Below, piece by piece: positions 42,001 to 61,721 of a stretch of 61,722 bases of DNA (position 1 is its first letter; each line of letters opens with the position of its first letter). Origin of the DNA: a virus; the IMG/VR virus record IMGVR_UViG_3300017714_000006, positions 1 to 61,722 of that record. The stretch is one strand, 5' to 3'. The notes under the pieces are model-generated. The model saw only the letters and a program-made list of their open reading frames with translations, was not told the origin of the DNA and ran no database searches. Made by a program: the position numbers and the translations under genes.

Positions 42001-45000
42001 TTACTATTAGTGAGAATGAGTTTGATTCAATTACTAAACGTAATTATTTTCAAGGGTTGATCAAACAAAGAGGAACATCAAGTGCATTTGATAAAATTGA
42101 ACGTAAATTTATAACTGATAAGCTAGACATTAAAGTTCATGAACAATATATGTTGTCTAGAAGTTACTTTGGTAACACAGACAGATTAGACGCAATAGAA
42201 TTTACATTAGACAATAACACATTTGAAACATCACCACAAGCTATTAAGTTTAATAACTTTACAGGAAGTGAAACTGTATACAATGATGTATTAGTTTATC
42301 CGCAAGGTGATAGTAGATTTGTTAATCCAGTAAAAACAGTTAACGCAGTATCGCTTGCTGTTGGCAAAACTTATCAAATAAAATCATTGGGAACAACATC
42401 TCAAAACGATTGGAATTTTCTTGCAGGAACTTCAGGAGTTACATATGTATCTGGTGATACATTTACTGCGGTTAAGACTAATGAAAACATTACAGGAACA
42501 GGCACAGCTACAACAGGCACTTCGTTTTCTACTCAACCTATAACAGAAGTTGACATAAGTAACTTAACAGCAGGTGCTTTATTAGACACTGAAGCAAAAT
42601 ATAAAACAAACTTATTAAGTGAAATTGGAAATGTATATAACAAATTAGAAGATTATGCAATCATAGAAACTTGGGCAAATAATAAAAGTTATAAAAAAAG
42701 TAATATAGTAAGATACCAAGGTGGATTATATCAGTGTATACCAGATAGCACAACAGTATCTACTGTAAGTGAGAATATAAGCATAACTGGTAATAATACA
42801 AATCCAACATGGCCATCAGGAACAATAGTAAGTATTGATGGTGCAGTGTTTCCTATATCTAAGGAAGTCCAGGAGAAACAACCAATACCAGTTACAGGAA
42901 CAGTTTTGAATCCTGTTATTACTGGTGCAACATCATCAACTAATACACTAATAATTGATGGACAATCAGTAACACTTAGCAAACTAGCAGGTGTCAATGT
43001 TCTAACTGGTGTTCCAGCATCAAAGACAGGAATTGTTCCAGGACCAGCATTTAATTCAAATAATGGATTTGTTACAGATAAGCAATTAGTTATTAATGGA
43101 ATAACTGTTGACTTTGACACAACACCACCAGACGTAATAGAAAACTTTATAGGTGATAACTTAGGAATTACGCCAAGTGATGCAACAGAAAATATCACAG
43201 GTGTAGCAGCACAGCAAACATATACTATTCCTAATACAACACTAAGTGGATCAACATATAGTGTTAGTGGTATAACAGTTGATGGAACTGCTTATGCAGA
43301 AACAACAGACTGGACAATAAGTGGACAAGACATTACATTTACTAATCCAACATTTGCAGGTAGCGAAGCTATTGTAGTTACAATGACACACGTTACAGTT
43401 GTAGATCTCAAAGATACATTTACAATTGCACAAGGAATTGTTGGCACTGCATATACAGTTCAATCAGTTACAGTTGGTGGAACTACACAAACTGATCCAA
43501 CACATTATTCAATCAGTGGACAAACATTAACATTCACTTCTGGAAATGAACCGGCAGACGGAGCATCAATTGTTGTAACTATTGAACATACTCCGTTAAG
43601 TATGACAACTGCAGAAATTGTAACAAAGATCAATGACACAATGGTAGCAAATGGAATCAGCATAACTGAACCAACTGGCACACCATATGTTGCCAATGAT
43701 GCTATACAGGCCGATTTGATTGGAAGTAGATTACGTATACGATACTGGGCTACAAGCACAGATCAGAGTAGCAATGATAGTAAATTAATACTTGGAAGTA
43801 GTATCAATGGCACTAATGAAATATTAGGCTTTGTTACAAATCCAACAGCAAGTTTAGTAGGATTAATCGAAGAACAACAAGAACAAGATTTAACTTTAGA
43901 TGACATAGTTACATTAATTACTAATACATCAAACCTTGGACACATCACTGCAACAAACGACAGTGGGTATCTTAAATTAGTAAGTGGTGCAAACTTAACA
44001 CCGGCTCAGAGAAGAACAACACTAACAGTAGAAGGAACACAGCGAGCAACAGTAGGATTGCCACTTAGCACTGCGGTTACAACATCACCTGTTACTGAAC
44101 CTGTTGACTTAACTACTGCGGTATCTTTAATTACAACTGGACTAGCAGATCCTGTAGCAGCAGGAGGATCGGGTAACGCTGTAACTGGAGTATCAGTATT
44201 AGGCACAGGTAATGCTTTAACTATAGCATCAACTAATCCAATACTTACATTAGCAAATCCTGGCGATGTATTCTTAAATAACGCAGGTATTAGTAGTTAT
44301 GGAGTAATAAGTTTAGTATCAGACAGTTCACAATTAAATACATTTGTTCCATCTGAATGGACAAACATAAGTCATACAGATCCAGCATTGTTTAATGTAT
44401 GGGTAGCAAACGATTCAGATTATGAAATTGATGGTATTGTAGGTAATAATAGTATTGCTGTAGACACAAAACATTATGGATGGAATGTATTCCAAGTTCA
44501 GAGCAGAGGATTATATACAGCAGATTTACAAAATAACCCAACTGATCCACTTACAAAAGATGAACCATGTGGAATATGTGCAGGATCGATGACTGCCGAT
44601 GGAAATGATGCACAAGTAACTGTAAACGCAAATCATGGATTAGCTGTAGGTGATTATGTAATGTTGTTAAACACAACTACTACACCTAACATTGATGGTA
44701 TTCATAAAGTAACAAAAATTGGATCGTCAACAGAATTTTATATTGATCAATATATTGACAAATGTGGATCATCTAGTTCAGTAATGACATTACGATCAAC
44801 AAGATTTTCTACAATAGAACATAGAGATGCAGCATTAAAAAGTATACATTGGAACATTCCACCAAACACATTAGTCTTTACAGACGAGGATACTAATCAA
44901 AAAACATCAATAAATGTATTTGAATCGGTATATCCAGTAGCAGGTGGATCAACTCTTACTGGTGCAGGATATCTAAATGGATATCTATATAATGAAGCAG

Positions 45001-47630: not shown

Positions 47631-47649
47631 AACCAAGAATTCTAATTGG

Positions 47650-47657
47650 CATAAATA
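47650..47657 (+). promoter_or_regulatory. Late promoter box CATAAATA
   Basis: CATAAATA with predicted start near 47663 and a 20-base leader that contains AAGGAG (47664-47669) before the ATG at 47683. Confidence 0.6.
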
Positions 47658-47682
47658 GTATATAAGGAGTAGGCGAACAGCA

Positions 47683-48279
47683 ATGAAAAATAATTATAAC
47701 GAACAAACAGATATTTCAGTAGACGGTCATTGTTTAATCAAAGACTTTGATACAGGTGAAGTATTACTAGACAAACATAATGCTATCAACTTTCAAAACT
47801 TTGCTTTTGCAGTTGCAAATCTATTAGCAAACAAATCTGTAAGCGGTAATCAGTTTTTTATTAATAGAATTGCGTTTGGTTACGGAGGCACAACAGTTGA
47901 TGCCAACGGTAACATTACTTACAGAAGTCCAAAAGTAGATGGAGTAAATGGTGGATTATATAATCCATTGTTAGACAATGCAACACCACCTGCTGCATAT
48001 CTAAAAGCAGTAGAGAGTATAGAGTTAGTAGATGCTGAAAGCAATCCATATTCAGACATAACTGTAAAGGTTATACTTGATTACGATGAACCTACAACAG
48101 CACCTACACTAGACAATGCACAAAATTTTGAAACACCAAGCGAATGGGTTATTGATGAATTAGCATTAGTAACTGAAACTGGTGACTTTCTAACACATTT
48201 GGTTTTCCATCCTATACAAAAATCAAAGAATCGTAAAATAGAAATTCTGTATTCACTTAGAATCAGAGCAGGAGTATAA
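47683..48279 (+). CDS. Tail/baseplate structural protein, 198 aa
   Basis: Starts MKNNYNEQTDISVDGHCLIK; ALVTETGDFLTHLVFHPIQK then SKNRKIEILYSLRIRAG at the C-terminus resembles phage tail proteins with a terminal beta-sandwich. The N-terminal LIKDFDTGEVLLDKHNAINF resembles the start of collar or fibre-attachment proteins. First gene after the giant wedge gene, with its own late box. No definite T4 counterpart is recognised (positions of gp8-gp10 are expected here). Confidence 0.6.
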   Translation: MKNNYNEQTDISVDGHCLIKDFDTGEVLLDKHNAINFQNFAFAVANLLANKSVSGNQFFINRIAFGYGGTTVDANGNITYRSPKVDGVNGGLYNPLLDNATPPAAYLKAVESIELVDAESNPYSDITVKVILDYDEPTTAPTLDNAQNFETPSEWVIDELALVTETGDFLTHLVFHPIQKSKNRKIEILYSLRIRAGV

Positions 48280-48282
48280 AAA

Positions 48283-49185
48283 ATGTCATATACAATTAAT
48301 AAATTAGGCGCTTCGGATATAACAGTAGAATACGGTACCCTTAATACAGAAACCAGCCTACAACTTGTTGGTAAAGATTATTTTGGATACGGTGAAGCAA
48401 TTGCTCAAAACTTTGTTGATCTACTAGAAAATTTTGCAAGCGACAACACAAGTACCGGCCCATCAAATCCAATAGCAGGTCAGCTATGGTATCATAAAGA
48501 TGTAGATACACTTAAAGTTTATGATGGAGTTAAATGGAGCGGAACAACATTCAATCAAGAAACAATATTAGATAACGGATCAACAGAACATGATTGTTTT
48601 GTAGTTAAAGCAAACAGTGTGCCAGTTGCTATATTCTCAAGTGATGCTGAATTTATAATTCATTCATCAGAAACACAATACCATGGAGACATAGCAGGCG
48701 GACTAAACAAATTTCCAGATAATAAAATCCATAAAGGATTAACACTGGGTAAAGATATGAAAATGCACGGAACGGCAACTGAAGCAGAATACGCCGACCT
48801 TGCAGAACTTTACACAAGTGATGCAGAGTATGAAGCAGGCACCGTTGTTAAAATTGGCGGCGAAGCTGAAGTAACACAGACAACAATTGAGTATTGTCCA
48901 GAAGTATTTGGTGTAGTATCTACTAACCCAGCATACTTAATGAATAGTGCTGCAGAAGGACTAACAGTGCCAGTTGCACTAGAAGGAAGAGTTCCTTGTA
49001 AAGTTATGGGCGAAGTTCATAAAGGACAACGTCTTATTTCAAGTGATGAACCAGGTGTAGCTAGAGCAGTATCAGACTATGAAAAAGAAGTAGGCATGGA
49101 TTGGTTCCGTGTTGTTGGTCGTGCATTAGAAAATAAAGATACGCTAGGTATTGGATTAGTTGAAATTGTAGTTGGAGTAAAGTAA
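48283..49185 (+). CDS. Tail fibre-like structural protein, 300 aa
   Basis: Residues about 60-85 contain GPSNPIAGQLWYHKDVDTLK then VYDGVKWSG, the repeat unit common in structural proteins of marine T4-like phages. The C-terminal half (EAEYADLAELYTSDAEYEAG, VVKIGGEAEV, FGVVSTNPAYLMNS, GRVPCKVMGEVHKGQRLISS) resembles a peptidase-G2/intramolecular-chaperone-like domain that ends many fibres. It begins three bases after the preceding stop in a late operon. Fibre or wedge-pin function is inferred. Confidence 0.65.
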   Translation: MSYTINKLGASDITVEYGTLNTETSLQLVGKDYFGYGEAIAQNFVDLLENFASDNTSTGPSNPIAGQLWYHKDVDTLKVYDGVKWSGTTFNQETILDNGSTEHDCFVVKANSVPVAIFSSDAEFIIHSSETQYHGDIAGGLNKFPDNKIHKGLTLGKDMKMHGTATEAEYADLAELYTSDAEYEAGTVVKIGGEAEVTQTTIEYCPEVFGVVSTNPAYLMNSAAEGLTVPVALEGRVPCKVMGEVHKGQRLISSDEPGVARAVSDYEKEVGMDWFRVVGRALENKDTLGIGLVEIVVGVK

Positions 49186-49186
49186 T

Positions 49187-50317
49187 ATGCCGACTATCCC
49201 TATCGAAACGGGTAATACGATTACTGCCGAACAGTTCAATGAACTTGTTACGCTATACAATGTATATTGGCATGATTCAGTTAATGGAGGATACTCGTTT
49301 GATGCAAATCATAATACCACAAATGATGATAGACGCAAAGGATGGGGACAAGCACCAGTAAATATTTCAAATAGTTTACAAGTCAACCAAGACGAACTTA
49401 TTACAGCAGAACATACTAACTATTTAATTTCACAAATAAACGCAGGCTTGTGGCATATGTCAGAGACTGTAAGTGATCTAGTCATACATAAAGCTCCATC
49501 AATGGCTATAGCGGCACAAGTATATAAAGACCTTGTAACTTTATACAATACTAAATTTAGTCCTAATCATCTAGTATGTGTTCCTACATCAAAAAGTATT
49601 ACAACAAATGTGCTTAGTGTTACTAATCCTAGTTCATCTACATGGACAGATGATTTATATTGCGAGAACGTATTTCAATTTGATAATTATAATGAAGCAA
49701 GACATTTCTTTAACAGTGGCGGAGAGCTACTAGTTGATATGTCAAGTTCAAGTGGCGGAACAAGTGATCCATCTCTAGTGTGGAGTTCATTCTTTGATGA
49801 TATGGGTATTATTCGAATAGGCGCCATATCAGCAACAAACGATGGAGATGGAGAAGGTGATGCTCCATTTAATAGTTTAGGTGGTAACACCAAAGGATTT
49901 TACAGTATAAACTTTACTTCTGGAAACTATGAACCAGTGTATGATGTAGCTGCTGATGACAGAACAACAAGTGGCGGCAGTCCTAACCCAGCTTTCTCTG
50001 ATTATAATCAGCGTAGGTTTAGAATATTACTAAAGGGCGAAGACTTATCACCAATCTTTAAAGTGCATTTAAAAATACAACTTATTGAAGACAGAGATGA
50101 TGATAGCACTCAAGCTCCAATTGATACTAACATTGTTGCAGAATTTGGATATGCACAACCATTAGATACACCAACTGCCCAAGAAGCAATTGACAATGAT
50201 AGTTTCTCTCCTAAAACAGGAATAAATTTTAAATTTGTGGAACGTGAAGTTCCTGGTATCGTAGCCACAGTCGGTTGGACTGCTACAGACACTGGACTAC
50301 CAGACGGCGACGGCTAA
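49187..50317 (+). CDS. Virion structural protein, 376 aa
   Basis: Begins MPTIPIETGNTITAEQFNEL; the N-terminal third repeats the ITAEQFN / ITAEHTN pattern (residues 12-18 and about 72-78), suggesting a duplicated small domain. The middle is Ser/Asn/Thr-rich beta (LVWSSFFDDMGIIRIGAISA). No family recognised. Its place at the end of the late structural operon, before a new promoter region, suggests a virion component. Confidence 0.55.
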   Translation: MPTIPIETGNTITAEQFNELVTLYNVYWHDSVNGGYSFDANHNTTNDDRRKGWGQAPVNISNSLQVNQDELITAEHTNYLISQINAGLWHMSETVSDLVIHKAPSMAIAAQVYKDLVTLYNTKFSPNHLVCVPTSKSITTNVLSVTNPSSSTWTDDLYCENVFQFDNYNEARHFFNSGGELLVDMSSSSGGTSDPSLVWSSFFDDMGIIRIGAISATNDGDGEGDAPFNSLGGNTKGFYSINFTSGNYEPVYDVAADDRTTSGGSPNPAFSDYNQRRFRILLKGEDLSPIFKVHLKIQLIEDRDDDSTQAPIDTNIVAEFGYAQPLDTPTAQEAIDNDSFSPKTGINFKFVEREVPGIVATVGWTATDTGLPDGDG

Positions 50318-50319
50318 AA

Positions 50320-50337
50320 CAAGTATATAAATACTTG
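50320..50337. promoter_or_regulatory. Perfect 7+7 palindrome overlapping the late box and the -35 of the accessory-module promoter
   Basis: CAAGTAT, ATAA, ATACTTG. It contains the exact late box TATAAATA (50326-50333), and its last three bases are the TTG of the TTGACA -35. Its symmetry suits a dimeric repressor or a structured DNA element. It may alternatively act as a small hairpin. Confidence 0.55.
50326..50333 (+). promoter_or_regulatory. Exact T4 late promoter box TATAAATA
   Basis: Complete match to the T4 late consensus, predicted start near 50339, 50 bases before the ATG of the first accessory-module gene. Confidence 0.75.
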
Positions 50338-50363
50338 ACAAAAACCCCAATCTAAAGTATTAT
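50335..50363 (+). promoter_or_regulatory. Near-consensus sigma-70 promoter of the accessory module
   Basis: TTGACA (50335-50340), a 17-base spacer, TATTAT (50358-50363): 11 of 12 consensus bases at ideal spacing. The start would be near 50370, just before AGGAG and the ATG at 50389. The tandem late box upstream allows expression both early and late. Confidence 0.8.
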
Positions 50364-50388
50364 AGTATATAAACTAGGAGAATTTTCT

Positions 50389-50739
50389 ATGGACGAACGT
50401 CTAGAGAAGGCGTTAGAGTTTAGCAATTACACTCTAACCCTTAATAATCAGAAGCAAAATATTAAAAATAGAGTAGCACAACTACAACTAGTGCATTACA
50501 ACGGAGGCGTATTTGTAGCAAATCAAGAAACTATTTCGTTTGTAAAAACAATGATTGATCTTGATAAAACTGTTGATGGTGTTATAATTGATTCAAAAGA
50601 TAATCCAATAAGAGTAAAAGACTACAAAGATCTACTTGAGAAACTTGTTGATGCATATGTTAGTGCCTCACAAGAATATGCAGTAGAATATGATAAGCTA
50701 CGAAAGTCTAGAAGCATTAAATCAATAATGGATTGGTAA
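50389..50739 (+). CDS. Small helical protein, 116 aa, first gene of the accessory module
   Basis: Begins MDERLEKALEFSNYTLTLNN; Gln/Asn/Lys-rich helices with KNRVAQLQLVHYNGGVFVAN. Small helical proteins of this kind occur near structural genes in marine T4-like phages, but I recognise no function. AGGAG lies before the ATG. It abuts the next gene with no gap. Confidence 0.6.
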   Translation: MDERLEKALEFSNYTLTLNNQKQNIKNRVAQLQLVHYNGGVFVANQETISFVKTMIDLDKTVDGVIIDSKDNPIRVKDYKDLLEKLVDAYVSASQEYAVEYDKLRKSRSIKSIMDW

Positions 50740-51636
50740 ATGCCTGAACACAAAGACAAACAAGGTGTATGTTTCTTTGTCTACAACAATGAAGAATTAG
50801 ATTATGTAGACTTAGCCATGCTGGCAGCTAGATATGTTAAAGAGTATCTAAAACTTCCTGTATGTATAATTACAGATGAAGGCACACATGGTTGGCTTAA
50901 ACAATCACAATCACAAGAAGATATTGATAAGTTTGTTGACTATATAAAAATAACCACCGACGAACTTAAACCAAATATACGTAGACACTACGACAGTCCG
51001 TATACAGAATTTAAAGCACAATTTAGTAACAGTAACAAGCATAAGATATGGGAATACAGCCCATTTGAACAAACGTTATTACTAGACACAGATTACATTG
51101 TCAAAAATAGTTTCCTATTAAAGAGTTTTGAATATGATGGTGTAGCAATGTTTAATAATGCATTAAGTATTAGAAACGATAAACCTCATCAAAACGAAAT
51201 ACTGTTATACGATCAAGGAATTAAAATGTGGTGGAGCACCGTTGTGTATTTTGATCGCAGTGACTTCAGTAAAATGTTTTTTGACTTATGGGCTCATATA
51301 GCAGACAACTATCAGTTTTATCAATTCCTATATAACTTTCCGGGTAATTTATTTCGCACAGACTATTGTGTAAGCATAGCAGTGCATATTCTCAGTGGCA
51401 TGGAGCAATCAAATATTATACATAACTATGATGACGAACCTATGTATTTTGTTTCGCAACGAGATAATGTTATTGATGCAAACAATATACAAGACTGGAT
51501 ATGTTTAGGTAACAGTTCAACTGAAAGCTGGAAGGACATTCTTATAAAACACAGCAACTTAGATTTACATGTAATGAACAAACGTGCTTTGTTAAGAGTA
51601 AAACCAAAACTTGTGGAGCATTTTAATGCCAGATAA
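50740..51636 (+). CDS. Glycosyltransferase-like protein 1 (GT-A, GT8/GT32-like)
   Basis: 298 residues. VCFFVYNNEELDYVDLAML at the N-terminus is a nucleotide-sugar-binding type start, and QTLLLDTDYI has the DxD motif (D116-T-D118) that binds the metal and UDP/GDP-sugar. WWSTVVYFDRSD and the following aromatic segment look like the acceptor side. The product would add a sugar to a lipid, protein or carrier-bound acceptor; donor and acceptor are unknown. Overlaps the next gene by 11 bases. Catalytic activity is not certain, as GT-A-like proteins in phages are often diverged. Confidence 0.6.
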   Translation: MPEHKDKQGVCFFVYNNEELDYVDLAMLAARYVKEYLKLPVCIITDEGTHGWLKQSQSQEDIDKFVDYIKITTDELKPNIRRHYDSPYTEFKAQFSNSNKHKIWEYSPFEQTLLLDTDYIVKNSFLLKSFEYDGVAMFNNALSIRNDKPHQNEILLYDQGIKMWWSTVVYFDRSDFSKMFFDLWAHIADNYQFYQFLYNFPGNLFRTDYCVSIAVHILSGMEQSNIIHNYDDEPMYFVSQRDNVIDANNIQDWICLGNSSTESWKDILIKHSNLDLHVMNKRALLRVKPKLVEHFNAR

Positions 51637-52471
51637 TATTGCACAAAATGGTTATGTAATAATTGCAGTCAACCCAACTGAATATAGACAAGCACAATGT
51701 TGTGCTTTCTCAATCAAAAGTAAAATGCCTGATGCAAGTGTTACATTAGTAGTAGGCAAACAAAGTAAAGTTCAACAAAAGTTTCTTGAAGGGTTTGATG
51801 CAATTACTGAATTACCATTTACTGTTGCTACAAATTGTAGACAGAATGACTGGCAGTTGTATTGGGCAAGCCCATATGAGAACACAATTGCTATAGATTG
51901 TAGCACATTGGTTAAAACTGATCTAACTAGTGCATGGGATTATTTAATTGATCATTGCAGTATTGCATTTCCTAATTCAATTACTAACATGCGTAAAGAT
52001 CAAATATATCCATTATATAAAAAACATTTAGAAAAAGATTATAACTTAGATGTAATTTACAGCGGTATATTCTTTTTTAAGAAAGATGAAATTGCTCTTA
52101 GACATTTCAAAATGGCAGATATTTATTTTCAATATTGGACTGATGTATGTAGCAAATATTTAAAACCAGAACACATACCAGATTTCTTTGACGCAGACAT
52201 AATGCACACACTAGTAGCTGATCATACTAATGGAGATGTAGTAACTATACCTAAGATATTAAGTTACATTGATATGAGAAACAGTGCAGGCAACACACTA
52301 AACAAAGTTAATAAGTGGACTGATAAACTTACTGTATGGCCAAGTAATGCAGGAAAGATAAAAATACAAAACTATGCAATCAATGATGTTCTATACTATC
52401 ATGAAGAAGAGTTTTTAACACAAGAAATATTCAATGAGCAACAGCATCACTACAACAACATCACAAAGTAA
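51626..52471 (+). CDS. Glycosyltransferase-like protein 2
   Basis: 281 residues from the ATG at 51626 (GGAG 8 bases upstream; a TTG five codons earlier is less likely). YVIIAVNPTEYRQAQCCAFS (10-29) and ENTIAIDCSTLVKTDL (85-100) follow the plan of the preceding protein, but DxD is replaced by D91-C-S. It is probably a diverged relative. It overlaps the next gene by 38 bases, which is unusually long. Confidence 0.55.
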   Translation: MPDNIAQNGYVIIAVNPTEYRQAQCCAFSIKSKMPDASVTLVVGKQSKVQQKFLEGFDAITELPFTVATNCRQNDWQLYWASPYENTIAIDCSTLVKTDLTSAWDYLIDHCSIAFPNSITNMRKDQIYPLYKKHLEKDYNLDVIYSGIFFFKKDEIALRHFKMADIYFQYWTDVCSKYLKPEHIPDFFDADIMHTLVADHTNGDVVTIPKILSYIDMRNSAGNTLNKVNKWTDKLTVWPSNAGKIKIQNYAINDVLYYHEEEFLTQEIFNEQQHHYNNITK

Positions 52472-53414
52472 TCAACAATGGAACATAAGATTTAACCCGG
52501 AGTCTGGCCGTATACTTGGGATTAGTCCACAACCATTTAAGCAAGTAAACGATAACGAACAGGTAGTATCTGTAACAAACAATGTATGCAGAGAGTTAGT
52601 ATCTGGAGAAAAGAATATGAGAAAGTATTCTATGCATTGGGATTCAATTGATAACCAATGGGATATTGATGTTAAAAGTGATACACTTGTATTAGAAATA
52701 AAAGGTAACAAACTAAATCAGTTTACTCAAGGCACACATCCTGAAAAGAATGATGTGTTTGTTCAAGTTATACGTAACGAAAATATTTTGAGAATTAAAA
52801 TTAACTTGTTGACTATTAGACGTTCTCTTAATCTTGGACAGATTAATAATATTAAAAATGAAAACCCTGACATATTAGATTTATATGTATGCAGAAAAAA
52901 CAATCCAGATTATTTAATTGGAGTAATACCAGTTGATGCAATTGAATTATTTAACAAGTATGTAATCTATATTGATGTTCCAAAAAATATTATTGAACAT
53001 ATTAATTCATGGGACGATATAAGTATTTTTACAAAACCTGTTTTTAAAACTTATGGTATAGAATTTACTGACATGTCAGCAGATAGTATACAAGATCATA
53101 ATAAGAAGCACCAAGTATCAAACTCGTCACTGGATGCTCATATAAATATGTATAAATTAAATGATAATTTAATTATTGATAGTAAGCTAGATAAAGATAT
53201 GATGCATTATTTTAATAATAAAAGATATATGCAATTCCATGTTTCTGATAGTCACATTGATAATTATGTAACCACGCTAAACGTAAGTGTAGCTAAGTTA
53301 CTTTATTATAATAAAGTTAAATTAGACTTACCTGCTAACTGGCCTGCAAACCCATTAATTGCTTTTGCAGAAACTCGACTTGCAGTAAATTATATTACGG
53401 AGAAAGAACAATGA
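52434..53414 (+). CDS. Hypothetical protein of the accessory module, 326 aa
   Basis: Starts MSNSITTTTSQSNQQWNIRF; NPESGRILGISPQPF (about 20-34) and many alternating hydrophobic/charged beta strands follow. No motif is recognised. The gene overlaps both neighbours, so it belongs to the operon. Alternative later starts are not obvious. Possible structural or accessory role. Confidence 0.5.
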   Translation: MSNSITTTTSQSNQQWNIRFNPESGRILGISPQPFKQVNDNEQVVSVTNNVCRELVSGEKNMRKYSMHWDSIDNQWDIDVKSDTLVLEIKGNKLNQFTQGTHPEKNDVFVQVIRNENILRIKINLLTIRRSLNLGQINNIKNENPDILDLYVCRKNNPDYLIGVIPVDAIELFNKYVIYIDVPKNIIEHINSWDDISIFTKPVFKTYGIEFTDMSADSIQDHNKKHQVSNSSLDAHINMYKLNDNLIIDSKLDKDMMHYFNNKRYMQFHVSDSHIDNYVTTLNVSVAKLLYYNKVKLDLPANWPANPLIAFAETRLAVNYITEKEQ

Positions 53415-54397
53415 GTAAAATGCAAAGCATTAACGAATTTGATATTGTATATATCAGCTATGATGAACCTAATGCTGATGAGAACTACGCAGACTTATTA
53501 GATAAATGTCCATGGGCTAAACGTAGTCATGGAGTAGAAGGAAGTGATGCAGCACACAAGGCCGCAGCCAACATGGCAGAGACTGATAGGTTTATTACTA
53601 TTGATGCAGACAATATTGTAGATCCAGCTTTCTTCAGCGTGGAAGTAGACATGGATAAAATTACTAATGTTGATGTTATTAGTTGGGCTGGCAAGAACAT
53701 TACTAATGGACTTGTATACGGCAATGGTGGCATCAAGTGTTGGCCGAAAGATGTTGTTATGAATATGCGAACACATGAAAATGCAGATCCTAATAACAAA
53801 GCTGCACAAGTAGACTTTTGTTGGAACATTAACTATGTGCAAATGAATAATATCTATTGCACAGTAATGAATAACGGTAGTCCACTACAAGCCTGGCGTG
53901 CAGGTTTCCGTGAAGGAGATAAGATGGGATTAGTAGACGGTGACGTAATAGATCCAGCTGACATGAAAAAGACAGTGCATGATAAAAACTACAAACGTTT
54001 ATTAACATGGATGAGTGTTGGCGATGATAGTGAGAATGGCATATGGGCAGTGTATGGCGCACGTCTAGGATGTCATATGACAAACATTACTAGAACAGAT
54101 TGGGATTGGAAAAACGTTAGAGACTTTAAATGGTTAACTAATTATTTTAATGAAAACGTATTACCAAAGTTTCAAAACAGTCCAGATCAATTATGCAAAC
54201 GCACAGGCACACAATGGAATTACAAAGCAGTAGAAGATGAAAGCATTAGACTTGGTATTGATTTACGTAAGAGATTAGATTTAGAAATTGCTGACTTAGG
54301 CAAAGAAGGCTCTCGATTCTTTAAAGAAGTATACATCAACCCAAGTCGTATGGGTGCTCAAATTAGAGAAGACCAGGTTGAAGATACATTAGAATAA
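53411..54397 (+). CDS. Glycosyltransferase-like protein 3
   Basis: 328 residues. DIVYISYDEPNADENYADLL at the N-terminus and DRFITIDADNIVDPAFF (59-75; D65-A-D67) match the GT-A family 2-like layout with a DxD-type motif. YGNGGIKCWPKDVVMNMRTH (about 103) resembles the segment where GTs read the donor base/acceptor. It starts with an ATGA overlap and is followed one base later by the AcpS gene. A sugar-transfer function is inferred. Confidence 0.55.
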   Translation: MSKMQSINEFDIVYISYDEPNADENYADLLDKCPWAKRSHGVEGSDAAHKAAANMAETDRFITIDADNIVDPAFFSVEVDMDKITNVDVISWAGKNITNGLVYGNGGIKCWPKDVVMNMRTHENADPNNKAAQVDFCWNINYVQMNNIYCTVMNNGSPLQAWRAGFREGDKMGLVDGDVIDPADMKKTVHDKNYKRLLTWMSVGDDSENGIWAVYGARLGCHMTNITRTDWDWKNVRDFKWLTNYFNENVLPKFQNSPDQLCKRTGTQWNYKAVEDESIRLGIDLRKRLDLEIADLGKEGSRFFKEVYINPSRMGAQIREDQVEDTLE

Positions 54398-54398
54398 A

Positions 54399-54713
54399 AT
54401 GAATATAGGTGTTGATATAGTTTCAGTTAATAGGATTAAAAAAATCTATAACAAGTATGGAACACGATTCACTGATCAATTTTTAACAGATGTAGAAAAA
54501 CAAAAAGAACTTACTCCAGAATATATATCAAAGTGTTGGGCAGTAAAGGAAGCATCAATTAAAGCAAGCGGCATAACAGATGCTAAACAATTCTCATATG
54601 GCAAGAACGGTAAGCAACCTATTGTAGTTACTAAAGTAAAAGGCAATTGGAATCTAAGTGTATCAGATGAAAAAGATTATGCAGTAGCAATGGTAATAAA
54701 ATCAGATGAGTAA
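54399..54713 (+). CDS. acpS: Holo-(acyl-carrier-protein) synthase-like 4'-phosphopantetheinyl transferase
   Basis: 104 residues, all the AcpS landmarks in place: IGVDIVSVNRI (3-13, metal-binding D6), KCWAVKEASIKA (45-56, E51), a Gly/Lys-rich loop with FSYGKNGKQP, and the end WNLSVSDEKDYAVAMVIKS. E. coli AcpS is 126 aa, so this is a compact form with a shortened middle. It moves 4'-phosphopantetheine from CoA to a Ser on a carrier protein. The carrier of this module (61479-61721) is its obvious substrate, though it could also act on the host ACP. It overlaps the radical SAM gene by 8 bases. Confidence 0.85.
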   Translation: MNIGVDIVSVNRIKKIYNKYGTRFTDQFLTDVEKQKELTPEYISKCWAVKEASIKASGITDAKQFSYGKNGKQPIVVTKVKGNWNLSVSDEKDYAVAMVIKSDE

Positions 54714-56280
54714 ACTAACCAAAGACTTTGATTGGGAAATTAATTCTCGAACAAAGGGATTTGATCCTGTTGGCAGAAACCAACAACACATGAAGGACAT
54801 GCTAAACAGTACCGGTCCTGGATTCTGCTTGGCTAAATGGACACAAGTTACTATGCACTTAGGAAATGGCACAACACATAGTTGTCACCATCCATCACCA
54901 CACAAGATACCATTGGATGAAATAAAGAACAATCCTGGTGCGTTACACAATACCAATTATAAAAAACAACAACGCAAAGCAATGCTTAACGGCAAACGTC
55001 CTAAAGAGTGTGATTTCTGTTGGCGAGTGGAAGACAACGGAGAGACAAGCGATCGTGTTTATAAAAGTTTAGATCAATTTAGTTTTAAGCATCATGATAA
55101 GATTGCAGAACTAGTGGGCGACGAAGATATATTTCCAACATATGTTGAAGTGAGCTTTGGCAATACATGTAATTTTAAATGTGCTTACTGTGGTCCTGCA
55201 TATAGTAGTCAGTGGCAACAAGAAAATAAAAACGGCGGTGCATATCAATTAACTGATATGACGTTTAATAATATAAGAAAAGATGAAACACACATACCGC
55301 AACGTGAACACAATCCATACATTGAAGCATTTTGGGAATGGTTTCCAGAAGCATACAAACACATGCATACATTTCGTATTACAGGCGGCGAGCCTTTATT
55401 AATTAAAGATACAATGAAAGTTATTGACTTTTTATTAGAGAACCCAAATCCAAATTTAAACTTTGCTATAAACAGTAATGGGTGTCCACCTGGCAAGTTA
55501 TGGAATGAGTTTACCGATAAGGTGAGACAATTAGAAGAAAGAAAGTGTGTTAAAGATTTTGTATTGTTTACTAGTGCTGAAGCAGGTGGAGATAGAAATG
55601 ATTATATTCGACATGGTATGGACTATGAACTATGGAAAAAGAATATAGAATACTTTTTAGAAAATACATTATACGCAGGTGTTACTTGTATGAGTGCGTT
55701 TAACTTACTAAGTCTTAGTTCTTTTAAAGAGTTGTTACAATGGATATTAAAACTTAAACAAAATTATAATTGGGCAGGATGGGACCATTGGTTACACAGC
55801 AAAGGGCTTCAACGACCTTTACTTAACAACAATGCTGTTAGAGAGGATGGTAGACCTATAAAGCCAGCTCGTGTGCTAATAGATATTCCTTATCTAAGGC
55901 ATCCTTCTTTCTTAGATGCAAACATTGCCTCAATTCCACTAATTCAAGATCATTTATTACCTGCAATTGACTTTATGTATGATAACTTATCGCATGCTGA
56001 TTGGGGTGGCAACATAGCATTTGATGATTGGGAAGCAAACAAATTACGTAGAACTGTAGTTGGTATTATTGATAAAGCACAAGAACATATAGCAGAACAG
56101 ATAACAACCAATCCAGTTACAAGACAAAACAGAAGTAGGTTTTATGATTTTATAAATCAATATGACAGTCGTAGAGATACTAATTTCTTAGATACATTTC
56201 CAGAGTATGCAGACTTCTTAGAGCTATGCAAACAAGAACATGATATACTGCACGAATTGAAAGCACAGGGCAAAGCATGA
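54706..56280 (+). CDS. Radical SAM enzyme 1 (CX3CX2C) with extra N-terminal cysteines
   Basis: 524 residues. GNTCNFKCAYCGPAYSSQW holds the CX3CX2C cluster (C155, C159, C162) that binds the 4Fe-4S and SAM. FRITGGEPLLI (about 226) is the GGE motif that contacts SAM. The N-terminal region has HSCHHP (C60) and ECDFCWRV (C102, C105), suggesting an auxiliary iron-sulphur site, as in twitch/SPASM-type enzymes but at the other end. Radical SAM enzymes of this class modify peptides or carrier-bound groups. Located right after AcpS in the same operon. Confidence 0.85.
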   Translation: MSKLTKDFDWEINSRTKGFDPVGRNQQHMKDMLNSTGPGFCLAKWTQVTMHLGNGTTHSCHHPSPHKIPLDEIKNNPGALHNTNYKKQQRKAMLNGKRPKECDFCWRVEDNGETSDRVYKSLDQFSFKHHDKIAELVGDEDIFPTYVEVSFGNTCNFKCAYCGPAYSSQWQQENKNGGAYQLTDMTFNNIRKDETHIPQREHNPYIEAFWEWFPEAYKHMHTFRITGGEPLLIKDTMKVIDFLLENPNPNLNFAINSNGCPPGKLWNEFTDKVRQLEERKCVKDFVLFTSAEAGGDRNDYIRHGMDYELWKKNIEYFLENTLYAGVTCMSAFNLLSLSSFKELLQWILKLKQNYNWAGWDHWLHSKGLQRPLLNNNAVREDGRPIKPARVLIDIPYLRHPSFLDANIASIPLIQDHLLPAIDFMYDNLSHADWGGNIAFDDWEANKLRRTVVGIIDKAQEHIAEQITTNPVTRQNRSRFYDFINQYDSRRDTNFLDTFPEYADFLELCKQEHDILHELKAQGKA

Positions 56281-56957
56281 AACATCCTTCTATAAAAACA
56301 ATACACTCTAAAGTAGGTTTATTAAATATATTATTCACACCAGGAGCAAGTGGAACTTTCTTAGCCAGCATGTTAGCCCAAGCAATAAGAGATCCTTGGT
56401 GGGAAGATTATAAGCCTTCAACTGATAATGAATTGTTTAGAGTGACAAATGAATTTCTTAATCCATTTAATCATATTGCAATGACATGGCATCCAATTAA
56501 TATTCCTGAAACACATGAAGTGTTAAGTCTAAAAGATATTAATTGGATTAACTTAACTATTACTCCTGAAGAAGCTAAGTTTACAAAAGTATTATGGGCA
56601 ATAAAAAGACAAGACTTTACAGGTGTTACAAAAGAAGATATACTGCATAGACTATCAAGTGACACTGATGAAGAATACAAAGGCATGCATGCTAGACAAA
56701 AGCGTATAGCATCACAACTGTCAGTTAATAATAATGTGTTAGATGTAAAGTTTAGTGATGTGTTTGCTGATGGTAACACAGATGTAATACTATCCATATT
56801 GAACACAGTATACAAAGGACACTATGTTGCAAACGGTATAGTAGACAATATAGCAAAACAATGTGTTGCCAAATACAAAGTAGATGTTAAGCTACATGAT
56901 GATTTACTTGTGCCGGACGGTGACGGACTTATTGATTATATACTAGCTCAAGTATAA
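56277..56957 (+). CDS. Possible sulfotransferase-fold (P-loop-like) protein, 226 aa
   Basis: ILFTPGASGTFLASMLAQAI (about 18-37) is a PxxxGxS/T-type loop like the 5'-phosphosulfate-binding loop of sulfotransferases. LWAIKRQDF (about 102-110) and LDVKFSDVFAD (about 154-164) are where such enzymes have the 3'-phosphate Arg/Ser strand and a second binding strand. The fit is suggestive only. It is ATGA-coupled to the radical SAM gene and converges on the next minus-strand gene with a 15-base overlap and no terminator. Confidence 0.45.
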   Translation: MKHPSIKTIHSKVGLLNILFTPGASGTFLASMLAQAIRDPWWEDYKPSTDNELFRVTNEFLNPFNHIAMTWHPINIPETHEVLSLKDINWINLTITPEEAKFTKVLWAIKRQDFTGVTKEDILHRLSSDTDEEYKGMHARQKRIASQLSVNNNVLDVKFSDVFADGNTDVILSILNTVYKGHYVANGIVDNIAKQCVAKYKVDVKLHDDLLVPDGDGLIDYILAQV

Positions 56958-57947
56958 ATCAAAGAACCCATTCTTTCTTAGTTCTAAATTTATAAAATGA
57001 TCTCCATACGTGTATGGAGTTCTATCAACACCTGAACTACTAAGGTTAGGCAAACTTGAATCTAATAGATCTTTATATAATTTAAAACCCATGTCATTGT
57101 TATGATACATATATGTAAACTCTGTATCTGGCATAGTATTTGCTATACTATTAATTGATTGTAGCTCTTCTGGTATATCTTTACAAAATACCAGGTTACG
57201 CAATGCTACTTCAAATGGAACTGTAAAGAAATTAGACATTTTATACTTTCCACCTACTGGTGCGTAATACCCATTGGTTAATACAACATTAGGATCGCAT
57301 GTTGTAGTGCCGCTTGTTATTAATACTCTAGTAGCATTTAAATAGTAAGCAAGCATACAACTACTGTGTCCATTCTTGCAATCAGCAATAACAGTATACT
57401 CTGTGTTTGGAATTAACTTCTTGATATAGTCAGCTATCTTTTCTGGACTGTTAAGTTCATCATTGATACCATCATACAAACAACTATCATACAATACTGG
57501 ATTGCGATAACTTCTTTTAACATCATCTACTATGCTTATAACATTATAGTCGGTGTAATGATCTAACATCCAACTGCCTTGATGTTCAACTGAATTTCTA
57601 GCAAGTTGTAGTAACCAACTGCCGCCACTTACTGTTACTATAGTTTTATCTTTGCCTCTATCAACATATGATACTGCATCATTATGATCTTGTATTGAAT
57701 TATAATGATTATTTTCATACATTAATGTATCTATGTTTTTTAAATTATCAAAATTATCTACAGCATATTGTCTCTGTTCAGCGGTAACTTGATCAGAATT
57801 ATTATTCAAGTGCTTTATCCAAAATTGATTCATTGCACTATAAAAGTTTATACTTTGATTTGAATCCTCAAAGTCCCAATCATTGTCAGCTATGTATTGT
57901 ATAATAGGGCACTGCCATTTTCTTCTGCCCGAATAATAAAATTTCAT
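56943..57947 (-). CDS. Possible alpha/beta-hydrolase-like protein, 334 aa
   Basis: KTIVTVSGGSWLLQLARNS (about 103-121) and YTVIADCKNGHSSCMLAYYL (about 185-204) suit the order of a beta strand and a nucleophile-elbow-like G-x-S-x motif (G-H-S-S) of alpha/beta-hydrolases; a following VLITSGTTT strand is consistent. The family call is tentative. If right, it might act as a thioesterase or acyl-transfer enzyme for the carrier pathway. Last gene of the minus-strand island, overlapping its plus-strand neighbour by 15 bases. Confidence 0.45.
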   Translation of the reverse strand: MKFYYSGRRKWQCPIIQYIADNDWDFEDSNQSINFYSAMNQFWIKHLNNNSDQVTAEQRQYAVDNFDNLKNIDTLMYENNHYNSIQDHNDAVSYVDRGKDKTIVTVSGGSWLLQLARNSVEHQGSWMLDHYTDYNVISIVDDVKRSYRNPVLYDSCLYDGINDELNSPEKIADYIKKLIPNTEYTVIADCKNGHSSCMLAYYLNATRVLITSGTTTCDPNVVLTNGYYAPVGGKYKMSNFFTVPFEVALRNLVFCKDIPEELQSINSIANTMPDTEFTYMYHNNDMGFKLYKDLLDSSLPNLSSSGVDRTPYTYGDHFINLELRKNGFFDLYLS

Positions 57948-58988
57948 TTATATTCCACCACTCCACCCTGGAAAGATATTAGCATCATATTCTTTTTCAA
58001 GTTCCTCATTGGTTAGTTTTTCTAACTGTGGTATAACACCATCTGGCCAATACTCCGCTCTTACTGGAAATGGTGCTATTGGAACCAGTGGTGCTTTTGG
58101 TGGATGTGTTTGCAATGGATAAGTGTATACGTTTGGTGTATACCTTGCTATATATGGAAACATACTCTTAGGTATGTTCATCTTAGATGAAATTCCAGCA
58201 ATCATTTCATGTGTGTCTATTTGAGGATAGCCACGATAAATTTTATGCATTGAATGATTACTGCTATGCTTACTAGGTATATGTTCTAGTGCATCGTATA
58301 CCCATACGTCTAATGCATTGCCAACTCCCATTACCCATAAGTCTTGACCGTTAGGAAACATCATTGTTCCGTTGTATCTTCTAATAATTTCTATAGGCTG
58401 ATATAATATTAAATTTTTATCAGCAGTGCAAAACGTTTGACGCTTGTTTACTGGATTATCCATTAAACTGTGAACCATTGTTTCAAATGCATGCATTGGC
58501 CATACCAGAACATCATAACGTTGCATAACAACTAAGTCATAGGTTATATCTGCTTCAGCTTCATATTTTTGCTTTAGCATAATAACTTCGGTCCACCCTG
58601 CTAATACCTTAGACTGTAGTATAGATTTTTTAATATCTCTGAGTTCATTTTCATATTCAGTTGTATATAATTTAAATTTTTTTGGTTTGTAATGTTCAAG
58701 TATTTGTTTTGTTTGATACTTAACTGCATCTTCTGGTAGATGTTGTTGATCTTTAGCATACTCATAATCAAATTTTTCTTTGTTATACTTGTGTCTTGTA
58801 TATGTAGTTTCATATTCTTTTAAACTACAAAAGAAATCTACATTTATACCATCCATTTTGTAAAATTGTTTTATAGATTCTATACATGCATCACCTGTTC
58901 GATATTGCCCATACATGCACACAGCTACGTTTTTAATTTTTATTCTACTATCTTGAAGCTGTTCGTCTCTCCATTTTTTATTCGGCAT
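57948..58988 (-). CDS. Polysaccharide-type glycosyltransferase-like protein, 346 aa
   Basis: I set the start at the ATG at 58988, which has a strong GGAGG; an open frame upstream is less likely. IKNVAVCMYGQYRTGDACIE (about 17-36) is the hydrophobic-F/Y-G-Q-x-R-T opening of a family found in surface-polysaccharide clusters, and DLVVMQRYDVLVWP (about 150-163) has the R-x-D element typical of the same group. FPNGQDLWVMG (about 220) resembles the acceptor loop. Ends directly before the next gene. The donor and target are unknown. Confidence 0.55.
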   Translation of the reverse strand: MPNKKWRDEQLQDSRIKIKNVAVCMYGQYRTGDACIESIKQFYKMDGINVDFFCSLKEYETTYTRHKYNKEKFDYEYAKDQQHLPEDAVKYQTKQILEHYKPKKFKLYTTEYENELRDIKKSILQSKVLAGWTEVIMLKQKYEAEADITYDLVVMQRYDVLVWPMHAFETMVHSLMDNPVNKRQTFCTADKNLILYQPIEIIRRYNGTMMFPNGQDLWVMGVGNALDVWVYDALEHIPSKHSSNHSMHKIYRGYPQIDTHEMIAGISSKMNIPKSMFPYIARYTPNVYTYPLQTHPPKAPLVPIAPFPVRAEYWPDGVIPQLEKLTNEELEKEYDANIFPGWSGGI

Positions 58989-59499
58989 AAAAATCCTCCA
59001 ACGAAGTCCATTGTATATTCCTTTGCCACAATGTTCTTTGTAACAATTGTCTACTAGTATCACCTGCTAACATCTGCGGTTCGTTTTTATAACTATCAAT
59101 CCATTTCCATACACTTACTAATTTCATAAAACAACTATAGCTGGTTACAAATGTATTGGGTGTAGGAGTTGGCTCAGGATAGTGTCCAACATCATCTATG
59201 ACTCTAAACATATGATCAAATATAATTGTGTTCTTGGGAAGTTTATTGAACCTATCTAGTAGATAATCAAAGACGTATGGATCTGTTGTTGCACAAACTG
59301 TAGAGCAATTGTTGGCAAGCTCATGCTGTCCATACTTGTCATACATGTTTACACCATTTGTCCAGTGTGCTTTAAAATTAGTATACAAAGAGTGTTCGTA
59401 TTGCAACCAAGGGTTCACAGTATCATTACGTTTTGTTTTGAATATTTCGTATGTTGAATGGTTGAAGCTAGTTGCACCAGTTACGCTTAGTAGTATCAA
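58978..59499 (-). CDS. Hypothetical protein, 173 aa, first gene of the minus-strand island
   Basis: Starts at TTG (59499) with GGGAG six bases upstream. MILLSVTGATSFNHSTYEIF is the start; Trp, Tyr and His are frequent (LQYEHSLYTNFKAHWTNGV, IIFDHMFRVIDDVGHYPEP). No family recognised. A late box at 59524-59532 lies 20-30 bases upstream. It overlaps the next island gene by 11 bases. Confidence 0.6.
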   Translation of the reverse strand: MILLSVTGATSFNHSTYEIFKTKRNDTVNPWLQYEHSLYTNFKAHWTNGVNMYDKYGQHELANNCSTVCATTDPYVFDYLLDRFNKLPKNTIIFDHMFRVIDDVGHYPEPTPTPNTFVTSYSCFMKLVSVWKWIDSYKNEPQMLAGDTSRQLLQRTLWQRNIQWTSLEDFYAE

Positions 59500-59523
59500 A
59501 GTTGACTCCCTATAATTATGTAT

Positions 59524-59532
59524 GTATTTATC
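59524..59532 (-). promoter_or_regulatory. Late promoter box GATAAATAC for the minus-strand island
   Basis: GATAAATAC on the minus strand with predicted start near 59519 and a 20-base leader containing GGGAG before the TTG start at 59499. Confidence 0.6.
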
Positions 59533-59533
59533 G

Positions 59534-59542
59534 ACTAAATAC
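59534..59542 (+). promoter_or_regulatory. Late-like box ACTAAATAC abutting the aminotransferase start
   Basis: ACTAAATAC ends five bases before the ATG at 59547; the sequence AAATACTAGTATG is identical to that before gp25. As there, the predicted start site falls on the A of the ATG. A perfect TATAAT also lies at 59511-59516, but no good -35 goes with it. Confidence 0.4.
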
Positions 59543-59546
59543 TAGT

Positions 59547-60326
59547 ATGGCGTTCACTAAATTGATAGACACCTTTATACTTCCGGAGGTGCAAGCTGAA
59601 CTGGATAAAGTAAAACCGCAGCTCAACGGAAGGCACCAATACGAAACTAATATCAAGACTTGGCTTAAACCTTTAATAGATTTAAAAGACTTTTATGTAT
59701 ATCCAATGAATGGTATAACTGAATGTATTAACTGGTGGCAACAGCACGAAAAACGAAACGTTAGAAAAGCCAAAGGTGACTACGAATGGGTAGACTATAA
59801 CAAAGTAATGACAGTTGGTAATACAATTGCTTATGTTAGTTGTCCTAGCAGTATTGATGGAAACTACACAGAGATACCAGATGAGGTTCCTGTTGTGCTT
59901 GATATAGCATATGCTGGGTGTGTTCCTGTTAAACCAATTAAGTTAAAAGACAATGTAGAGAAAGTATTCTATAGTTTAAGTAAGCCATTTGGTATAGGAA
60001 ACATAAGAACAGGTTGGTATTTTACTAGACGCCCGGACGCAAAACTACATGCACTAAGCATAGAAGCAGCATATTATAACCATTGTGCTAATCAGTATGC
60101 AGAACATGTAATAAATACATACAGTATAGATTATATACATACAGAATTAAAGGATATACAACACAGCGTTTGTGCTGAACATGACCTAACACCAAGTGAT
60201 TGTATTTGGTTAGCTACTAGCACAGATGAACAATACAAAGACTTTAGACGTCATGAACACACTGACGTTGCGAGACTCTGTATCACAGAATTGATTAAGG
60301 AATATTATGGAAAACAGTCCAGGTAA
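59547..60326 (+). CDS. Compact PLP-dependent aminotransferase-like protein (fold type I)
   Basis: 259 residues from the ATG at 59547. FYSLSKPFGIGNIRTGW (141-157) is the PLP-lysine motif (S-x-S-K-x-F-G...R-x-G-W, with K146 and R154), and VVLDIAYAG (117-125) is the preceding D-x-x-Y strand (D119, Y122) that binds the pyridine nitrogen and O3'. NGITECINWW (55-64) corresponds to the phosphate-binding helix start. Typical class I enzymes are about 400 aa, so this is a reduced form lacking much of the small domain. It could convert a carrier-bound or free keto group to an amine. It overlaps the next gene by 20 bases. No ribosome site. Confidence 0.7.
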   Translation: MAFTKLIDTFILPEVQAELDKVKPQLNGRHQYETNIKTWLKPLIDLKDFYVYPMNGITECINWWQQHEKRNVRKAKGDYEWVDYNKVMTVGNTIAYVSCPSSIDGNYTEIPDEVPVVLDIAYAGCVPVKPIKLKDNVEKVFYSLSKPFGIGNIRTGWYFTRRPDAKLHALSIEAAYYNHCANQYAEHVINTYSIDYIHTELKDIQHSVCAEHDLTPSDCIWLATSTDEQYKDFRRHEHTDVARLCITELIKEYYGKQSR

Positions 60327-61467
60327 AAATATATCAGCAGCAGAACGCATAGAGTTCAAGCCAACTGAGGAAATGAACGCTCCTATGACTGGTGACCCGA
60401 CCAAGGATAATATTACTATTCTTGATGACAAGCCACCTATCTTTCATAGCTTACCAGAGTATGATATAGAAAAGAATCCATTTAGTTTTTTATATGTTGA
60501 CATGACATATGATTGTAACATGGAATGCGAGTTCTGTTATAACCCAGTTAGAACATACAGCACACTGGACATCGAATGGTTTGAAGATGTATGTGCTAGA
60601 CTGCCACACCCTGTTAACTTTAGATTGTTAGGCGGTGAACCAACACTGTATCCGCATTTAGATAGAGCATTAGATGCCGCTACCAAACACGGACACCAAG
60701 CAGCAATTGTTACCAATGGATTGCGTTTGGCTAGCATGAGTTATGCTAAGAAACTTAAAAAGGTTTTAGATCGTAACCCTACAGTAAACGTTAGCTTGAG
60801 TATGAACGGTGGTATGCATCACGATGATTGGTATATAGATATTGATGGGGAGAGCAGACGCAAGAAGAAAGTCAAAGCACTAGAGAACATGTTGGAACTT
60901 GGCTATCGTAGACTTTGTATTAACGCTATTATTGTTAAAGGTTTAAACGAAGGACTAGTAAAAGAATTTTATGACAAAGCATTACAGCACCCAGGACAAA
61001 TAACAAACATACGTTTCCGCACAGCAGCCAAACAAGGTCGTTGGAATGATGAGATTGGTGCGTTTGATAATGATGAACACGATCAAACCAGTTACACAGG
61101 ATTGCAACTGGATGAATACATTAAAACTGTAATACCAGAAGCACGTAGTCCTATTAAAGTAATACGTGACGGTTATCACCCTAGCACAGGTTCAGGAGTT
61201 AGACTCAATGTTCCAGGCTTAAAGTGTAACCAGTGTTGCTTTATGTATTATATAAGACCACAGCTATGGGTTGCTACAGTTGAATTTGGATCACATAACA
61301 GTGCGTTATGCTGGAGACGAGGACAATTAGTGCAAGGCAATGGCGTTATACAACCATTCCACCATTACATGGATGAACTAAGTAGATACATTCAAACTTA
61401 TAAGCCAGGTGGAATGAGGGATACAGCTTCACAAAAAGCAATAAAAAGCATACCTATTCAGGAATAA
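60307..61467 (+). CDS. Radical SAM enzyme 2 with C-terminal cysteine cluster
   Basis: 386 residues. VDMTYDCNMECEFCYNP holds CX3CX2C (C70, C74, C77); FRLLGGEPTLYPH (about 101-113) is the GGEP motif; IVTNGLRL follows. C-terminal C307, C310, C311 and C335 suggest one auxiliary iron-sulphur cluster as in SPASM/twitch enzymes that modify peptides. AAGGA lies before the ATG. It is flanked by the aminotransferase-like gene and the carrier-protein gene, so the carrier or its cargo is a likely substrate. It differs from radical SAM enzyme 1 in length and cysteine layout. Confidence 0.88.
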   Translation: MENSPGKNISAAERIEFKPTEEMNAPMTGDPTKDNITILDDKPPIFHSLPEYDIEKNPFSFLYVDMTYDCNMECEFCYNPVRTYSTLDIEWFEDVCARLPHPVNFRLLGGEPTLYPHLDRALDAATKHGHQAAIVTNGLRLASMSYAKKLKKVLDRNPTVNVSLSMNGGMHHDDWYIDIDGESRRKKKVKALENMLELGYRRLCINAIIVKGLNEGLVKEFYDKALQHPGQITNIRFRTAAKQGRWNDEIGAFDNDEHDQTSYTGLQLDEYIKTVIPEARSPIKVIRDGYHPSTGSGVRLNVPGLKCNQCCFMYYIRPQLWVATVEFGSHNSALCWRRGQLVQGNGVIQPFHHYMDELSRYIQTYKPGGMRDTASQKAIKSIPIQE

Positions 61468-61478
61468 AGGATAAAACT

Positions 61479-61721
61479 ATGAACAAAGATGAAACAAAAC
61501 AAGCAATACAAGATGTATTGACTGACGGCTTATTCCTCAAAGAGGATACAGTATTTGATTGGACTACAACATTTGAAGCTCTAGGACTAGATAGCTTAGA
61601 TAAGATTGAATGTAAAATGACAATCGAAGATGGATTAAGCGTAACATTACCAGAAGATAGCTTTGCAGGTGACGTGCTAACTGTAGAAGATGCTGTTAAC
61701 TTGGTAATGGAGCATGCATAA
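61479..61721 (+). CDS. Acyl/peptidyl carrier protein
   Basis: 80 residues, complete, with stop at 61719-61721. LGLDSLDKIECKMTIED holds the phosphopantetheine attachment motif G-x-D-S-L (S39 in G36-L-D-S-L40). The size, acidity and four-helix pattern fit a stand-alone ACP/PCP. It follows radical SAM enzyme 2 by 11 bases (AAAGGATAAAACT before the ATG). The AcpS at 54399-54713 is its probable activator. Whether acyl or aminoacyl groups are carried is unknown; no adenylation or ketosynthase gene is in the window, so these may lie to the right or be supplied by the host. Confidence 0.92.
   Translation: MNKDETKQAIQDVLTDGLFLKEDTVFDWTTTFEALGLDSLDKIECKMTIEDGLSVTLPEDSFAGDVLTVEDAVNLVMEHA

Follow-up and report, generated by a model that had tools for sequence, protein, structure and literature searches.

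A PLP enzyme and a radical SAM enzyme (rSAM2) encoded by overlapping genes in a phage genome fragment are best explained, with a probability of about one half, as a tailoring module that would work together with a thioester carrier, either an acyl carrier protein (ACP) or CoA. The fragment, hereafter the window, is an entire IMG/VR record of 61.7 kb. The five genes of the initial annotation, encoding an AcpS-type protein (AcpS), a twitch-domain radical SAM protein (rSAM1), the PLP enzyme, rSAM2 and ACP, are real: the open reading frame map and the family searches agree with the positions stated for them. The block and its upstream context comprise the following features.

36081..54397, + strand: upstream context, a giant 3849-aa open reading frame and conserved genes of unassigned role (open reading frame map; conservation in clade A, see below)
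54399..54713, + strand: AcpS-type 4'-phosphopantetheinyl transferase, 104 aa (PF01648, TIGR00556, motifs IGVD and WAVKEASIKASG)
54706..56280, + strand: twitch-domain radical SAM protein rSAM1, 524 aa (NF033640)
56277..56957, + strand: conserved protein C17, 226 aa (no Pfam match above cut-off; kept in clade-A contigs)
56943..57947, - strand: conserved protein C18 with an invariant N-G-H-S-S-C (alignment)
57948..58985, - strand: conserved protein C19, phrog_13607 (family search, alignment)
58978..59499, - strand: conserved protein C20, 173 aa (kept in clade A)
59547..60326, + strand: compact fold-type-I PLP enzyme, TAA1/alliinase-like, 259 aa (S-x-S-K lysine, AlphaFold model, Foldseek)
60307..61467, + strand: radical SAM enzyme rSAM2, 386 aa (PF04055, CX3CX2C, C-terminal cysteine set)
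61479..61721, + strand: acyl carrier protein, 80 aa, Ser39 in LGLDSL (PF00550, phrog_5934, placement after rSAM2)

Both halves of the carrier system belong to the families first proposed for them, and their active sites are intact. AcpS scores 38.7 bits against PF01648 (cut-off 25) and 47.3 bits against TIGR00556 (cut-off 45.35), carries the motifs IGVD and WAVKEASIK, and keeps D6, K50 and E51 invariant in an alignment of 7 homologues; the PF01648 score, the catalytic Asp and the K-E motif together place it in the phosphopantetheinyl transferase superfamily. Since its score against the AcpS equivalog TIGR00516 (49.2 bits) lies under the cut-off of 59.8, we call it AcpS-type rather than an AcpS orthologue. 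The ACP gene is complete, ending at 61721, and its product matches PF00550 at 28.6 bits (cut-off 20.8) and the acyl carrier protein family phrog_5934 at 2e-10. The carrier serine, predicted as S39 in a DSL motif, is indeed Ser39 and is invariant in the alignment. The two genes lie 6.8 kb apart with three opposite-strand genes between them, and both evolve under constraint (dN/dS 0.06–0.17 for AcpS, 0.06–0.23 for AcpS and ACP together).

The PLP enzyme was initially described as a short protein with an S-x-S-K motif. The motif holds, with K146 as its lysine, in a protein of fold type I, but the start had to be moved: homologues begin at the equivalent of ATG 59547, not TTG 59472, so the 284-aa reading frame is too long. 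HMM placement, suggested as a check on each of the five proteins, succeeded for AcpS, ACP and both radical SAM proteins; it formally failed here, as the PLP protein reaches 17.8 bits against PF00155 (aminotransferase class I/II; cut-off 19.7), and its relatives are likewise sub-threshold or without a match. Placement in fold type I comes instead from the motifs (VYPxNGITE, PSSIDGN, LDIAY and SLSKPFG-x-x-NIRTGW) and from an AlphaFold model with a pLDDT of 90.5, the Schiff-base lysine K146, pyridine-binding D119 and phosphate-binding R154 agreeing with the predicted fold. Y122 and R243 complete the active-site set, and K146, D119, G56, R154 and R243 are invariant across 18 homologues. Among known structures, the model places the protein nearest to the tryptophan aminotransferase TAA1 (best Foldseek match, 4.9e-10) and alliinase, which is also among the best matches, although all Foldseek matches are remote (11–17% identity, TM about 0.55–0.67); relative to TAA1 and alliinase the phage enzyme is only about 12–15% identical and is 100–170 residues shorter. 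The motifs SK...R-x-GW, D-x-A-Y and DG are presumably common to all three. A profile search of the PDB returned nothing useful for this protein.

Both radical SAM proteins match PF04055 (37.6 and 53 bits; cut-off 29.5) and contain CX3CX2C. In rSAM2 (PF04055, 6e-14) the cluster motif reads CNMECEFC, and four additional C-terminal cysteines (307, 310, 311 and 335) are invariant in the alignment. Its gene shares 20 bases with the PLP gene and is the most constrained of those tested, with a dN/dS of about 0.05. At the sensitivity of our genome-collection scan rSAM2 had no relative in GTDB species genomes, and no homologue was found in the phage records searched. Identification as a prokaryotic viperin (pVip) was rejected (46 bits, cut-off 180), the PADLOC match being confined to the radical SAM core. 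rSAM1 is firmly a twitch radical SAM protein (NF033640, 299 bits; cut-off 170).

A survey that combined viral contig scans with a gene-cluster map distinguished three arrangements. rSAM2 occurs in 12 viral contigs besides the window, and in every one of them a PLP gene lies on the same strand, no more than a few genes away. The first arrangement (group A, or clade A) consists of the window and 5 contigs in the order AcpS, twitch radical SAM protein, C17, three minus-strand genes, PLP enzyme, rSAM2 and ACP. ACP stands directly 3' of rSAM2 in 6/6 records including the window, about 10 bases away, and the 5 contigs as well as the window all have AcpS, bearing out the expectation that the genes co-occur in related phages. 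Clade A comprises about four lineages that, at 65–100% identity, are effectively one lineage sampled in fragments, so this co-occurrence of ACP and AcpS is not strongly independent. Conservation ends at ACP, since the genes after it vary: one contig continues with a DUF6071 protein and a sulfotransferase, another with HAD, nucleotidyltransferase and radical SAM genes.

The second arrangement (group B), met in seven contigs from about five lineages, runs in the order rSAM2, a small protein of DUF6356 or SET type, a thiolase-like enzyme, sometimes a methyltransferase, the PLP enzyme, a glycosyltransferase-like or sulfotransferase gene, and an aryl-CoA ligase. ACP and AcpS are missing from 7/7 of these contigs, those of 113–137 kb included, whereas the ligase and the thiolase-like enzyme are present in 7/7. 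The ligase scores 403–408 bits against TIGR02262 (cut-off 375) and matches benzoate-CoA ligase at 1e-108; the thiolase-like enzyme matches BktB at 1e-32 and keeps the nucleophilic Cys and the GHP His. Because the second thiolase Cys is seemingly missing on inspection of the sequence, this enzyme possibly catalyses condensation or transfer instead of cleavage. The third arrangement (group C; eight contigs and the isolate Mosig) joins the PLP gene to a desaturase-like gene and a 2OG oxygenase of the Asp/Arg hydroxylase type, without rSAM2, ACP or CoA ligase. The capsid proteins of one group B and one group C contig are 74–75% identical to that of the window, so the arrangements co-exist inside one broad jumbo-phage group.

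Comparison of the first two arrangements is informative. Their gene orders are unlike (PLP-rSAM2-ACP versus rSAM2-x-thiolase-PLP-x-ligase), which means that the linkage of PLP enzyme and rSAM2 has outlived rearrangement, and wherever this pair occurs it is accompanied by a thioester system, ACP/AcpS in one group and CoA ligase/thiolase-like enzyme in the other. This constant company supports thioester chemistry. The twitch radical SAM protein does not share in it: it is missing beside the group B core and its family is scattered over other phage contigs, so that rSAM1 is probably an independent neighbour outside the core module, contrary to the earlier view of two radical SAM enzymes in one pathway. 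Of the adenylation, ketosynthase and condensation genes that had been suggested as search targets, adenylation genes do appear in relatives beside PLP and rSAM2, together with thiolase-type ones, but none was found in clade A, where no loading, condensing or releasing/offloading enzyme was seen in the available contigs, which are fragments. We rejected an NRPS/PKS-type assembly line, as the clade-A fragments contain no adenylation domain and adenylation occurs only in relatives that do not have ACP.

We envision a module core formed by the compact TAA1/alliinase-like PLP enzyme and its dedicated rSAM2, lodged in a variable region beside tail-fibre genes. In the window's lineage the carrier would be the phage ACP, with its phosphopantetheine added by the AcpS of the same phage; in relatives the core would use CoA by way of the benzoate-CoA-ligase-family and thiolase-like enzymes. 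Most likely, the PLP step would act on an amino acid and the radical step on the carbon skeleton, giving an unusual acyl group that could then be transferred off the thioester onto a virion or host-surface glycan or protein. Several findings count against this proposal: clade A is in effect a single lineage, AcpS and ACP lie well apart, AcpS stands without a detectable ACP in one contig, clade A has yielded no loading, condensing or releasing enzyme, the PLP family also occurs in group C without rSAM2, ACP or CoA ligase, and the Foldseek matches are remote. The initial annotation, which overall is partly supported, had proposed chemistry on a tethered substrate; group B lends independent support to the thioester part of this idea. 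Arming of this ACP by this AcpS, tethering of the substrate, direct use of ACP by the PLP enzyme or rSAM2, the order of steps and the nature and destination of the product are inferences. More tentative is the fuller proposition that the PLP and radical SAM core is an interchangeable module, served by either phage ACP/AcpS or phage CoA enzymes, that makes some small molecule or acyl group, as yet undescribed, for the virion or host surface. Phage genes adjacent to tail fibres are usually taken as sugar-modifying. If our proposal is true, an ACP/CoA acyl pathway with a radical enzyme so far seen only in viruses would represent phages' own multi-step small-molecule chemistry, and the 259-aa PLP enzyme and the 104-aa phosphopantetheinyl transferase would offer compact enzymes for in vitro work.

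Alternatively, ACP and AcpS may serve host lipid metabolism during infection as a supplementary fatty-acid carrier with its activating enzyme, the PLP enzyme and rSAM2 being unrelated to them and acting on free metabolites. ACP does resemble a fatty-acid-type carrier (TIGR00517, 40.8 bits), lone ACPs exist in other phages (ICP1 and Erythrobacter phage R6L), and one 91-kb contig (L015) has AcpS without a detectable ACP. We nevertheless regard this explanation as unlikely, given the short spacing of rSAM2 and ACP throughout the clade-A contigs, the CoA-thioester enzymes that attend the PLP/rSAM2 pair in group B, and the absence of fatty-acid-synthesis genes from the block. Independently gathered genes that became neighbours by accident in a hypervariable region are less probable still. 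Marine T4-type phages have a very variable host recognition region that gathers radical SAM and sugar genes (PMC7029224), and the AcpS gene of contig L005 was seemingly exchanged recently; but in the 12 contigs and the window rSAM2 is never found without the PLP gene, the group B cassette is strict, and the genes overlap and are under strong purifying selection (dN/dS < 0.34 for every gene tested). For the PLP/rSAM2 pair, a chance neighbourhood is already disfavoured. A DNA-base hypermodification pathway is very improbable: PLP and radical SAM enzymes do occur in the thymidine hypermodification of other phages, and remaining genes may lie elsewhere in a jumbo genome, but the block adjoins tail-fibre genes and the company it keeps consists of carrier proteins, CoA ligase, thiolase, sulfotransferase and methyltransferase. 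None of the genes typical of hypermodification turned up in searches made for other purposes.

A module of PLP enzyme and rSAM2 with exchangeable thioester systems has partial precedents. Benzoate/anthranilate-CoA ligases with a thiolase-fold partner are known from alkylquinolone-type pathways, and group B is analogous in setting a TIGR02262 ligase beside a thiolase-like enzyme; in contrast, the window's lineage yielded neither enzyme. Pelagibacter phage Mosig EXVC030M encodes a PLP homologue of 45% identity among tailoring genes beside tail fibres, but there the partner is a fatty-acid-desaturase-like gene and no ACP is annotated in the region. ACP-like proteins are likewise phage-encoded in ICP1, in phrog_5934 and in Erythrobacter phage R6L (ORF32; PMC5463345), where they have no known role; unlike these lone ACPs, that of the window is accompanied by an AcpS encoded in the same phage and by the conserved pair of PLP enzyme and rSAM2. 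In the open literature we found lone ACPs only when looking for a phage ACP with AcpS or a radical SAM pathway, and found no carrier-system swap around a PLP and radical SAM core. Lone phage ACPs and tailoring genes in tail-fibre regions are known already, and the ACP/CoA-swapped module appears undescribed.

The genomic setting also bears on these comparisons. The window has T4-type genes for head, portal, late sigma and baseplate, and had been described simply as T4-like. The closest matches of its capsid protein are from jumbo phages of 280–470 kb (67–70% identity) and its nearest DNA, among the matches listed, is in the portal genes of 350–380-kb phages, so it is most likely a piece of a jumbo T4-related phage; its nearest relatives are not T4-like myoviruses of standard size. 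The module sits downstream of the 3849-aa open reading frame, which is probably a tail fibre, and its neighbours, some of which may have sugar-transfer roles; a Pfam search gave no match for three of these upstream genes. This position resembles the host recognition cluster of pelagimyophages and cyanomyophages, which likewise adjoins tail fibres, is variable and contains both glycosyltransferase and radical SAM genes, and for which a change of host surface or recognition has been proposed (PMC7029224). The consulted passages of that account mention no ACP, AcpS, CoA ligase or PLP partner, and the window derives from a jumbo phage. Elsewhere in the window, 8003–9163 and 12135–13799 set the phage apart from standard T4-likes and assign it to a jumbo T4-related group near Sinorhizobium phage Phosso, Vibrio phage 2.275.O, PA5oct and CBB-type phages.

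These genes do not form a single operon: three conserved minus-strand genes occupy 56943 to 59499. Shared late and early promoters, once cited for joint action of the genes, are not borne out: T4 late-promoter octamers number 4 against 9.6 expected, none of them inside 54399–61721, and sigma-70-like sites, at 52 against 62.6 expected, show no enrichment either. The invariant N-G-H-S-S-C of C18 looks like a nucleophile elbow, a weak lead towards an alpha/beta-hydrolase-type, possibly acyl-transferring, enzyme; it stays a lead because the structure prediction failed (pLDDT 41.6, not usable). Profile searches of the PDB gave no convincing relative for C18 or C19, and a Pfam search no family match for C20.

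Several observations concern exchange and the wider distribution of single genes. Compared with the window copy, the AcpS gene of contig L005 (4092–4397) has a dS of 0.37 while other genes tested range from 1.25 to 3.15, a low value that points to recent exchange of that gene alone. The AcpS of L015 (4133–4441; 79% identical) has a thymidylate synthase gene and a number of radical SAM genes in its vicinity, and a remote PLP homologue occurs at 24 kb. Group A forms one clade in the PLP tree, whereas the PLP enzyme of L033, a group B contig, clusters with a group C sequence (97/92), a placement suggesting that PLP enzymes can be exchanged among gene contexts. A gap of 154 bases lies ahead of the L033 gene (12698–13447), giving it the look of a swapped-in gene. 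Between rSAM2 and the thiolase-like gene, group B encodes a small membrane-like DUF6356 protein or else a SET-domain protein (L031 11193–11426; L007 1830–2117). A further contig with a 36% ligase match (L060) proved to be an unrelated locus, and L059 breaks off at the ligase. The cassette of desaturase-like gene, PLP gene and oxygenase is seen in Mosig (L037, 13633–19886), L023–L030 and L038, and in Mosig, L038 and L025–L027 it is followed by a TauD-like enzyme (Mosig annotation), a methyltransferase and an N-acetyltransferase. The genome-collection scan for the PLP enzyme returned solely a contig, probably of phage origin, within a Paceibacter MAG and a distant copy in a Bacteriovoracaceae MAG (L039, 4801–18660; 31% identity); the latter locus, which also contains radical SAM genes, two desaturase-like genes and a number of oxygenase-like ones, is a possible cellular counterpart of the PLP/desaturase-like cassette.
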